Source: Bolinopsis microptera (taxonomy: Eukaryota > Ctenophora > Tentaculata > Lobata > Bolinopsidae). Taken from it: DNA of 64,000 bases. Location of the stretch: the NCBI RefSeq assembly GCF_026151205.1, contig NC_087073.1, positions 16,635,837 to 16,699,836 of the forward strand. The letters run 5' to 3'. This document shows, one piece after another, positions 15,026-45,788 of this stretch; the stretch's first letter is position 1; each line of letters starts with the position of its first letter. The notes beneath the pieces are model-generated. The model was not told the origin of the DNA. It saw nothing but the letters and a program-made list of their open reading frames with translations, and did no database searches. Both the position numbers and the translations under genes were made by a program.

Positions 15026-18000
15026 ATGTGGACTAATTTTCTACTTACCTTGGTCGTCGCTCTCAGCTGTAGGATAGAGTTAGGATGCTGTTTTTTTGAC
15101 TACAACCAGGAACTGTCATCCCCGCAGAAATTTCTACAACTCTACACCTCGCTTCAGGACAGGGTCGGGGCTCATTTCTCAGGTGAGAACTGGACATTGT
15201 ACTTGTTGGGGGTGTTAAGTTAATTCGATTTAATCGGGTTAAGTTTTTGAGCAGTTAATTTAGTTTTATGTTTATAATTCATTTTCTATAGGAGCGAGGC
15301 TCTTCCATGGGCATTGGCCATTGGGCCACAAAAGACGAAAATTTGGACTCGTGATATTTTGGATTTAAGATAGTTTTGCACTGGATGGGCGAATCATATG
15401 ATGTATCATATCAGATATCGATAGTCTGGAATATCACTGGAAAACGTTACAATTTCACAAATGAAACAACAGATCTTTTAAAAATTGTTTGTACTGAAAG
15501 TTTTTTTAAAGAAGTAAAATATAGAATACCATAGCTACAATACTGTTTTAAGTCTTGAGTCTATTGAAGCAATTTATATAATTGTTGCACGCTCTCAGGT
15601 GAAGAAAAATTGCTGAGATTAGGAGTTTTTAAAAGAGCATTGAGGTTCATTGGGCGTCAAAACAAACAGACCCAAGAGTGGCAAGTTGATGTCAACAAGT
15701 TCTCGCTCATGGTAGGTCACGATTGGGTATTTTTAGGAATCATTACGTTTGTTTTCTATTCTTACTCACACTCACAGCCGAGAGCTTTTAGTAGTTTTAC
15801 TTTGACACATACTAAGACCTGAGAAATGAAAGAAGCTTGTAAATTCAGACAGATGACGAGAAAGCGCAGTACCTGGGATACAACAGTTCTCTGCCCCGTC
15901 AAGAGAGGAAAAATGACGTCACAGTTATCTCTGATGACGTCACTTCTGATGAAGTACCAGCGTCGGTGAACTGGGTTGCTGCGGGGGCGGTTACAAAGGC
16001 AAAAGATCAAGCCAGATGCGGCAGCTGCTGGACTTTCGGATCGGTATGTAAAGTTAATGACGAGGCGATTGAGGCAGATAAGTGACTTATGAAACCTATA
16101 AACCCTTTGATAAGGACTTGACAAGTGATAAATACACTTATTACTACACTCCTACACCAATTACAATTAAGATCTATTACGTACTCGAGACAGAGCAGAG
16201 ATTATACAATGTTTCGTGTACTACCCATATAATGCTGGAGTTGCTCTAATACTATTCAGTATTTCTAAACAATTATACAGGGTGGCCCAGAAGTAACTGC
16301 CCACACGCAACCCTTTGATAAAACACAATTCTTCTTAGAATTGCACAGAAATTTATTATAGGGTTGCGTGTGTGTAGTTACTTCTGGGCCACCCTGTACA
16401 ACTACACAAAAAACCCCTATTCAGACGTGCGCGATAGAAGGAGCCTACCAGATAGCGACAGGTAAACTGAAGAGCTTCTCAGAGCAGGAGTTACTGCACT
16501 GTGTGTACGACCTGAGGAATGGGTGTACAGGAGGGTTCAACAGCGACGCTATACAGTGGGTCATAGACCACAAGCACATGGCTACAAGGAGGAACCTTCC
16601 TTACATTGCTAAAGGTAGGGTTAGTGGGCAGGTTACAAGGAGGAACCTTCCTTACATTGCTAAAGGTAGGGTTAGTAGACCACAAGCACATGGCTACAAG
16701 GAGGAACCTTCCTTACATTGCTAAAGGTAGGGTTGGGTCATAGACCACAAGCACATGGCTACAAGGAGGAACCTTCCTTACATTGCTAAAGGCAGGGTTA
16801 GTGAGCAGGTCATAGACCACAAGCACATGGCTACAAGGAGGAACCTTTCTTACATTGCTAAAGGTAGGGTTAGTGAGCAGCTCATAGACCACAAGCACAT
16901 GGCTACAAGGAAGAACATTTCTTACATTGCTAAAGGTAGGGTTAGTGAGCAGGTCATAGACCACAAGCACATGGCTACAAGGAGGAACCTTCCTTACATT
17001 GCTAAAGGTAGGTTTAGTGGGTCATAGACCACAAGCACATGGCTACAAGGAGGAACCTTCCTTACATTGCTAAAGGTAGGGTTAGTGGGCAGGTGATAGA
17101 CCACAAGCACATGGCTACAAGGAGGAACCTTCCTTACATTGCTAAAGGTAGGGTTAGTGGGCAGGTCATAGACCACAAGCACATGGCTACAAGGAGGAAC
17201 CTTCCTTACATTGCTAAAGGTAGGGTTAGTGGGCAGGTTACAAGGAGGAACCTTCCTTACATTGCTAAAGGTAGGGTTAGTAGACCACAAGCACATGGCT
17301 ACAAGGAGGAACCTTCCTTACATTGCTAAATGTAGGGTTGGGTCATAGACCACAAGCACATGGCTACAAGGAGGAACCTTCCTTACATTGCTAAAGGTAG
17401 GGTTAGTGAGCAGGTCATAGACCACAAGCACATGGCTACAAGGAGGAACCTTTCTTACATTGCTAAAGGTAGGGTTAGTGAGCAGGTCATAGACCACAAG
17501 CACATGGCTACAAGGAGGAACCTTCCTTACATTGCTAAAGGTAGGTTTAGTGGGTCATAGACCACAAGCACATGGCTACAAGGAGGAACCTTCCTTACAT
17601 TGCTAAAGGTAGGGTTAGTGGGCAGGTCATAGACCACAAGCACATGGCTACAAGGAGGAACCTTCCTTACATTGCTAAAGGTAGGGTTAGTGGGTCATGG
17701 ACCACAAGCACATGGCTACAAGGAGGAACCTTTCTTACATTGCTAAAGGTAGGGTTAGTGGGCAGGTCATAGACCACAAGCACATGGCTACAAGGAGGAA
17801 CCTTCCTTACATTGCTAAAGGTAGGGTTAGTGGGCAGGTGAGGGTCTATAACAATCAGGGGACATCAATACACCCACATGATTAGAGGACTAATCGGGCA
17901 ATAACATTGGGCCCCAAAGAATTTACACATTACCAGTCTCAGTAGCCCATTACTGGACTCTTATTTTTCCCTCTGACATTATGTCCCTCAACTGTCTCTC

Positions 18001-45788: not shown

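Follow-up and report, generated by a model that had tools for sequence, protein, structure and literature searches.

The window analysed here, a stretch of 64,000 nt of chromosome C2 of the ctenophore Bolinopsis microptera (positions 16635837-16699836), carries a papain-family (cathepsin-like) protease gene on the forward strand and the gene NMD3 on the reverse strand, the latter encoding a protein that matches solved NMD3 at E=3.1e-159. Tandem arrays were called by Tandem Repeats Finder (TRF) and the gene models of the window were built by homology (Table 1). Three minisatellites with different units, one in the cathepsin-like gene and two in NMD3, contain a splice junction in each unit, with exon and intron bases repeated together. 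The initial annotation had noticed that minisatellites with different units in unrelated genes contain junctions; this was confirmed here, and the same was found on chromosome C5, at a gene encoding an EDC4_C domain. The assembly comprises 13 chromosome-scale scaffolds (~254 Mb), and its annotation was described as built with RNA-seq and Iso-Seq evidence (PMC10232365).

Minisatellites across splice junctions in the cathepsin-like and NMD3 genes

In the cathepsin-like gene, the array lies at the donor of exon 4, whose last base is 16614 (GCTAAAG^GTAGGG). The 72-bp unit is made of ~56 nt of the exon end and ~16 nt of the intron start, and the array holds 17 intact donor copies as well as an internal block duplication at a lag of 605 bp (97.5% identity over ~367 bp). 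Relatives P0121 to P0123 have protein sequences that continue across the array-bearing junction, and P0121, a 90% identical protease, crosses it without insert. Unit searches covered the 264.65-Mb genome, a scope in which zero further matches are not a proof of rarity; all 10 matches of the 72-bp unit fell inside the cathepsin array, with no further place reported.

At the acceptor of NMD3 exon 2 (first exon base 39069), ~40 nt of intron end and 12 nt of exon start form a unit of ~52 bp, and 117 copies of GTGATCCTTCA were counted, every one of them preceded by AG. Within this intron-1 array, a 910-bp stretch is repeated at a lag of 1272 bp with 99.6% identity, and a three-unit genome query returned 52 matches, all within the array itself, with no further place reported. 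As acceptors, the units rank at the 97th percentile of those predicted, with no advantage for the exon-proximal copy, and the same AG^GT reaches the 36th percentile of predicted donors; the 117 units vary too little to separate neutral from constrained splice motifs. None of the 116 upstream acceptors would keep the frame open. Thus, a working NMD3 mRNA needs either the last acceptor or a removal of the spare units, possibly stepwise, which the AG^GT sites could allow.

The acceptor of NMD3 exon 9 (first exon base 29370) is likewise repeated, in 10 exact copies, by an array whose 39-bp unit includes 10 nt of exon; the genome search with this unit gave four matches, all at its own locus, and no further place was reported. 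The short array before exon 5 adjoins the junction, as it begins at the intron's last base, ends at the AG, and contains zero exon bases (exon from 37727). The NMD3 proteins of relatives P0001-P0005 (70-96% identical) are contiguous across exons 1/2 and 4/5, and across exons 8/9, P0001-P0003 are colinear while P0004 and P0005 differ slightly in length.

Hence, among the four arrays that the initial annotation had reported to include a junction, those of cathepsin exon 4 and NMD3 exons 2 and 9 do so according to TRF and the gene models, while that of NMD3 exon 5 only abuts one. Its description of the repeats as lying exactly over junctions holds for three of the five arrays, with one more touching a junction. 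The fifth, a 15-bp array at a Ras/Rho-like gene (Ras family PF00071, E=2.1e-19), is not at a splice site: the reading frame runs into the array and ends at TAG 23943, a stop present in one copy only.

Table 1. Positions in the window of the junction arrays, their host exons and other tandem arrays
Feature	Position	Strand	Basis
Exon 4, papain-family (cathepsin-like) protease	16425..16614	+	phmmer to cathepsins, best E=6.7e-39
72-bp array	16559..17839	+	TRF from 16573; first unit from ~16559 by sequence, lowest genome match there
NMD3 exon 1	45639..45788	-	homology model
~52/54/55-bp array, most of NMD3 intron 1	39058..45361	-	TRF
NMD3 exon 2 (VILHFCRFCERY...), first 12 nt part of array unit	38944..39069	-	NMD3 homology
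NMD3 exon 3	38333..38545	-	homology model
NMD3 exon 4	38057..38181	-	homology model
Short 29/15-bp array before NMD3 exon 5	37728..37820	-	TRF
NMD3 exon 5	37604..37727	-	homology model
NMD3 exon 6	37283..37381	-	homology model
39-bp array at NMD3 exon 9 acceptor CTAACAG^GGCCAGTTAC, end of intron 8	29361..29797	-	TRF
NMD3 exon 9	29236..29370	-	homology model
15-bp array (AAGAAGAAAGAGGGA) entered by C-terminal frame of Ras/Rho-like gene	23919..24419	+	TRF
51-bp in-frame array, wholly coding, in Ser/Thr-rich open reading frame (ORF) 2880-4544	3620..4234	+	TRF

Two further observations concern the body of NMD3. The end of exon 6 (~37283-37300, reverse strand) is one base short compared with the relatives and shifts the frame (CTRYL vs CTRISD in P0001 and P0002), which may be either a sequencing error or real. 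Among the 120 NMD3 matches listed, none carries the name of B. microptera, most of the close ones being without a name. Moreover, intron 8 (29371-36589) holds, nested on the same strand (31764-35526), a gene for a receptor with LDLa repeats and seven transmembrane segments, recognized from adjoining ORFs (PF00057, E=9.5e-26; PF00001, E=2.9e-13); a further gene of this LDLa-seven-transmembrane type lies at ~11209-14540 on the forward strand. Upstream of NMD3 (46927-49200), a 317-bp tandem repeat (46927-47958) is found together with stretches rich in GTCACA/TGTGAC.

Exon edges elsewhere in the genome

The gene on C5, which the source of the record names bre1-like ligase, encodes an EDC4 C-terminal domain (PF21289, E=7.3e-18, residues 269-368) and carries three arrays: a 30-bp one at a donor, a 46-bp one at an acceptor and a 29-bp one at the stop codon. 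The domain spans the acceptor junction, which follows residue 282. A model spliced at one unit agrees with the annotated B. microptera protein P0241 at 398/399 residues, the sole difference being at the donor junction, and P0241 contains no repeat peptide. The DNA of the stop array repeats ELDQY*, and P0241 ends with QLDQY at that stop. A 68-bp array likewise crosses the stop codon of a leucine-rich repeat gene on C1, judged by reading frame only. The C5 gene is itself part of an inverted duplication (C5:8000001-8040600, L015-L019), each arm of which holds the EDC4_C-domain gene and a second, NOL6-like gene. The arms are 96.9-98.8% identical in their longest pieces and 91.7-93.3% in the two array-holding pieces, and exact copies in the donor array number 64 in one arm vs 9 in the other. 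This structure could be a real palindrome or mis-joined haplotypes, and the 64 and 9 copies could accordingly belong to paralogs or to haplotypes.

Placement was examined in an independent sample of 280 kb from six chromosomes outside the window's own, where 139 TRF arrays (score >=50) cover 11.6% of the sequence, a minisatellite-rich composition. A self-trained hidden Markov model (HMM) gene finder was run with each array collapsed to about one unit, and the overlap of arrays with predicted junctions was compared with random placement. The gene finder retrieves most NMD3 and cathepsin exons; because it misplaces some exon ends (NMD3 exon 6, cathepsin exons 1 and 3) and fuses neighbouring genes, its stop and start statistics are unusable, and it puts none of 47 arrays at predicted stops, yet inspection reveals arrays that cross them. 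Once arrays are collapsed, the introns that it predicts have a median length of only 287 bp.

With the C5 inverted duplication represented by its first arm only, 9/37 large arrays hold a predicted junction; free placement gives an expectation of 4.02 (p=0.013), and placement barred from wholly coding positions one of 4.96 (p=0.047). Ignoring exons <40 nt, the count outside the window becomes 8/37 vs 3.72/4.57 (p=0.025/0.073). An earlier version of the gene models gave 11/40 vs 4.39/5.40 with both C5 arms (p=0.0024/0.012), 9/37 vs 4.18/5.15 with one arm (p=0.017/0.058), 15/70 vs 6.17/7.68 with smaller arrays and both arms (p=0.0008/0.007), and 6/23 vs 2.68/3.29 for arrays >=200 bp (p=0.038/0.092). 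For arrays in predicted introns <3 kb, 8/22 cross a junction vs 4.04 (p=0.025), or 11/38 vs 6.95 when smaller arrays are included (p=0.056). In the window, where placement results are post hoc since its arrays raised the question, the earlier version placed a predicted junction in 4/10 large arrays vs 1.25 (p=0.021) or 1.70 (p=0.062), and the later version, with exons >=40 nt, in 5/10 vs 1.17/1.59 (p=0.002/0.009), the fifth being array 1586-1770, whose unit is dispersed. In the sample and window together, 35/50 large arrays are without a predicted junction.

Inspection of the nine matches outside the window left two with protein support, the donor and acceptor of the C5 gene. Two (B1:41594 and B1:42397, 2.4-2.6 copies) have gene-model support only, three (B1:4387, B3:37915 and B3:49653, the last with a dispersed unit) involve short weak exons, and B3:6601 rests on a 7-nt exon. 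The remaining match, B1:10581, was rejected as a junction array, as inspection showed a stop codon. The excess is therefore weaker than the raw numbers, with just two matches of nine protein-supported and one a stop. Units transplanted elsewhere are expected to yield 1.33 false junctions vs 9 observed, a control that tests false-junction creation only and whose small p-values are no placement test. The initial annotation had considered chance unlikely and suggested random placement as the comparison; its view of chance is not supported. With 11.6% array cover and short introns, ~18% of arrays in introns <3 kb (4.04/22) would cross a junction by chance; the excess observed at junctions is about twofold and borderline, and several matches failed inspection.

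Mirages and the origin of the arrays

Minisatellites that span junctions have been named "mirages" in amphioxus, where they are described for Adh3 (Canestro et al. 2002, cited in PMC3087553) and for the globins BflGb6 and BflGb9 (PMC3087553); the initial annotation, which knew of no named system, is corrected on this point. In that account, amphioxus mirages are of unexplained origin, do not disturb splicing and are unstable in length (PMC3087553); somatic polymorphism is reported at Adh3. A unit with both exon and intron bases, as in mirages, is present at NMD3 exons 2 and 9, at cathepsin exon 4 and at the C5 donor and acceptor, and absent from the NMD3 exon-5 array, which merely abuts its junction. 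The arrays described here differ from those of amphioxus in their host, a ctenophore instead of a cephalochordate, in their copy number, up to 117 instead of the 3-6 units given for BflGb6 (PMC3087553), and in the presence of similar arrays over stop codons. In the open-licence literature searched, junction-spanning minisatellites were named mirages for amphioxus only, and none were found for ctenophores. The arrangement is real and striking, and the ctenophore is a new lineage for mirages, suggesting an independent origin in distant animals wherever minisatellites abound. Such arrays may mislead gene prediction and may supply material from which introns grow and alternative isoforms arise. 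Moreover, with its 117 intact and nearly identical acceptors, the NMD3 intron constitutes an unusually clean natural experiment on the choice of the exon-proximal site by the spliceosome.

The AGGT tandem-duplication model of intron gain (Rogers 1989, described in PMC4974935) also invokes tandem duplication of junction-bearing DNA within genes. In that model, however, the duplication makes a new intron (PMC4974935), whereas here the unit already holds exon and intron, from which we infer that the intron is older than the array.

We propose that these arrays are probably ordinary minisatellites, born in a genome rich in repeats and tolerated wherever the exon-proximal junction or stop stays intact. 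The first tandem duplication would arise anywhere, through the general repeat-forming process of this genome, and duplications inside coding sequence would usually be purged by selection. A duplication across a donor, an acceptor or a stop codon would leave one intact edge attached to the exon body; provided that splicing uses the exon-proximal donor or acceptor, or that translation ends at the first stop, the product would stay the same. The spare copies would then sit in the intron or in the 3' untranslated region and expand by duplication of multi-unit blocks. In B. microptera NMD3 and cathepsin, it is presumably the exon-proximal copy that is used, and the spare copies would be neutral. 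Stop codons need no splicing; a splice-specific trigger fails there, and tolerance at any exon edge fits both kinds of array.

Several results weigh against this explanation. Neutral tolerance alone is not obviously enough to exceed the geometric expectation, and in the gene-model tests outside the window the excess amounts to 1.6-2.8 times, where p ranges between 0.0008 and 0.09 according to the array threshold, the null and the C5 arms counted. Independently of annotation, CAGGT occurs in 10/47 units vs 3.8 in non-coding stretches and 4.5 in shuffles (rank 3 and 4 of 512), donor-like 6-mers are tandem in arrays 1.8-2.4 times as often as their anagrams, per outside occurrence, and the donor pair CAGGTAAGT N20-50 CAGGTAAGT was found at at least 14 places genome-wide among the matches listed, reaching C10, vs 2 for CATGAGGAT and at most 2 for TGAATGGAC. 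A broader idea is that splicing itself licenses or promotes minisatellite growth, junction arrays, AG^GT above all, being formed or kept at about twice background or more, an idea that we regard as possible but doubtful. If it were true, exon edges would serve as nurseries in which large hypervariable arrays grow, stop codons would be their translational counterpart, and the NMD3 intron with its 117 acceptors would be the clearest natural test of splicing-licensed growth.

A first alternative is that duplication is initiated at splice sites, by repair of R-loop or co-transcriptional breaks or by AGGT-microhomology-primed duplication at junctions, as the initial annotation had suggested. The roughly twofold junction excess (9/37 vs 4.0-5.0 in the sample, 4/10 vs 1.25-1.7 in the window, 15/70 vs 6.2-7.7 with smaller arrays) argues for it, and so do donor-like words in the 47 units: besides CAGGT, AGGT (21/47 vs 12.2) shows the strongest over-representation of any 4-mer when non-coding stretches are the reference, and GTAAG is found in 10/47 vs 4.0. 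CAGGTAA pairs in the sample (6 locus bins vs 0.39 per anagram, both C5 arms counted) and the donor pairs just mentioned point in the same direction. However, AGGT falls to rank 13 of 136 against shuffles (21 vs 17.2), and the word excess shrinks in the 33 units left without the 14 arrays over predicted junctions (AGGT 12 vs 8.1 in non-coding stretches and 10.1 in shuffles; CAGGT 4 vs 2.3; GTAAG 3 vs 2.9). In the sample, counts of AGGTAAG pairs do not exceed the mean of the anagrams (1 vs 1.12 loci; 0 vs 0.59), nor do those of GGTAAGT pairs (0 vs 0.49); acceptor-like 6-mers are tandem in arrays at 0.2 to 2.5 times their anagrams. Added to this, inspection weakened most of the nine outside matches, and the stop-codon arrays have no splice site at all. 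A trigger at splice sites or AGGT, given that stops are crossed too and that units away from junctions have only a slight AGGT excess, therefore appears rather unlikely.

By raw pair counts over the whole genome, the donor word does not stand out. It gave 505 pair matches, and the five control words 2, 12, 44, 161 and 700; AGTGACAGT, an ill-chosen control that overlaps itself, and its reverse gave 610 and 612. Such raw counts are ruled by a few huge arrays and are not decisive, and the contrast of 505 with 2 was dropped as evidence. On C1 and C2, the donor pair occupies 3 places among the matches listed and control CTAGGAGAT at least 3, and the donor word CAGGTAAGT itself occurs 2462 times genome-wide vs 1212 for its reverse TGAATGGAC. 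The word pairs are thus suggestive of donor enrichment, far from decisive. At the donor-pair places, at least 14 in number and including C1:6658906-6665539, tandem copies of the consensus donor CAGGTAAGT are spaced 29-59 bp apart.

Alternatively, the arrays may be licensed at the RNA level: AG^GT units would be dual-specific, spare copies would be spliced as unit-length introns or skipped, and such arrays would be better retained, which would yield a junction excess without a special mutation process. The NMD3 exon-2 AG^GT, with its high acceptor and intermediate donor percentiles, suits this proposal, and the cathepsin and C5 donors are likewise AG^GT. In human UBC, dual-specific splice sites lie in coding tandem repeats and give isoforms, and human dual-specific sites are reported as 8.4-fold enriched in tandem-repeat introns (PMC10809524). 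The likeness to UBC resides in one AG^GT per repeat unit as a potential 5' and 3' splice site; unlike in UBC (PMC10809524), the copies in the ctenophore seem to be non-coding spares, and AG^GT is found at some of the junctions only. The junctions of NMD3 exon 9 (AG^GG), NMD3 exon 5 (AG^TG) and the C5 acceptor (AG^GC) lack it, and the cathepsin and C5 donor copies reach only the 9th and 11th percentile as acceptors. We consider RNA-level licensing improbable.

Coincidence combined with selective noticing, in which no junction excess exists and arrays touching exons were picked out, would agree with the flat AGGTAAG pair tests in the sample, with the p-values of 0.058 (one C5 arm dropped, one null) and 0.073 (short exons ignored), and with protein-supported matches of 2/37 outside the window, under the 4.0-5.0 expected from all predicted junctions. 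This last comparison is too strict, because the expectation includes unsupported predicted junctions, and transplanted units produce few false junctions; we consider coincidence very unlikely.

Finally, the insertion at junctions of copies of a mobile or introner-like element is hardly conceivable and largely refuted for the three junction arrays of the window, despite a superficial likeness of introns made of repeated units to introner insertion and despite the unit that array 1586-1770 has in common with an array on C3, as the junction units hold the host exon's own codons and the 39-, ~52- and 72-bp units, reported at their own loci only and not dispersed over many introns as introners are (no further place in 264.65 Mb, which does not prove rarity), do not look mobile.

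Further features of the window

The array at 1586-1770 and that at B3:49653-49780 (C3 ~5.0497 Mb) have a common 54/55-bp unit (TCAACCCGCCGAACATG...), unlike the junction units; from its sequence, this unit on C2 and C3 looks like a dispersed satellite or part of an element. Long homopolymers, 25 G at 62735-62759 of the window and 44 C at C3 ~5.04866 Mb, are possible assembly trouble spots. An RZ-type zinc finger is encoded on the reverse strand at 53728-54027 (PF20173, E=3e-16), of the kind found in RNF213/ZNFX1-like proteins.

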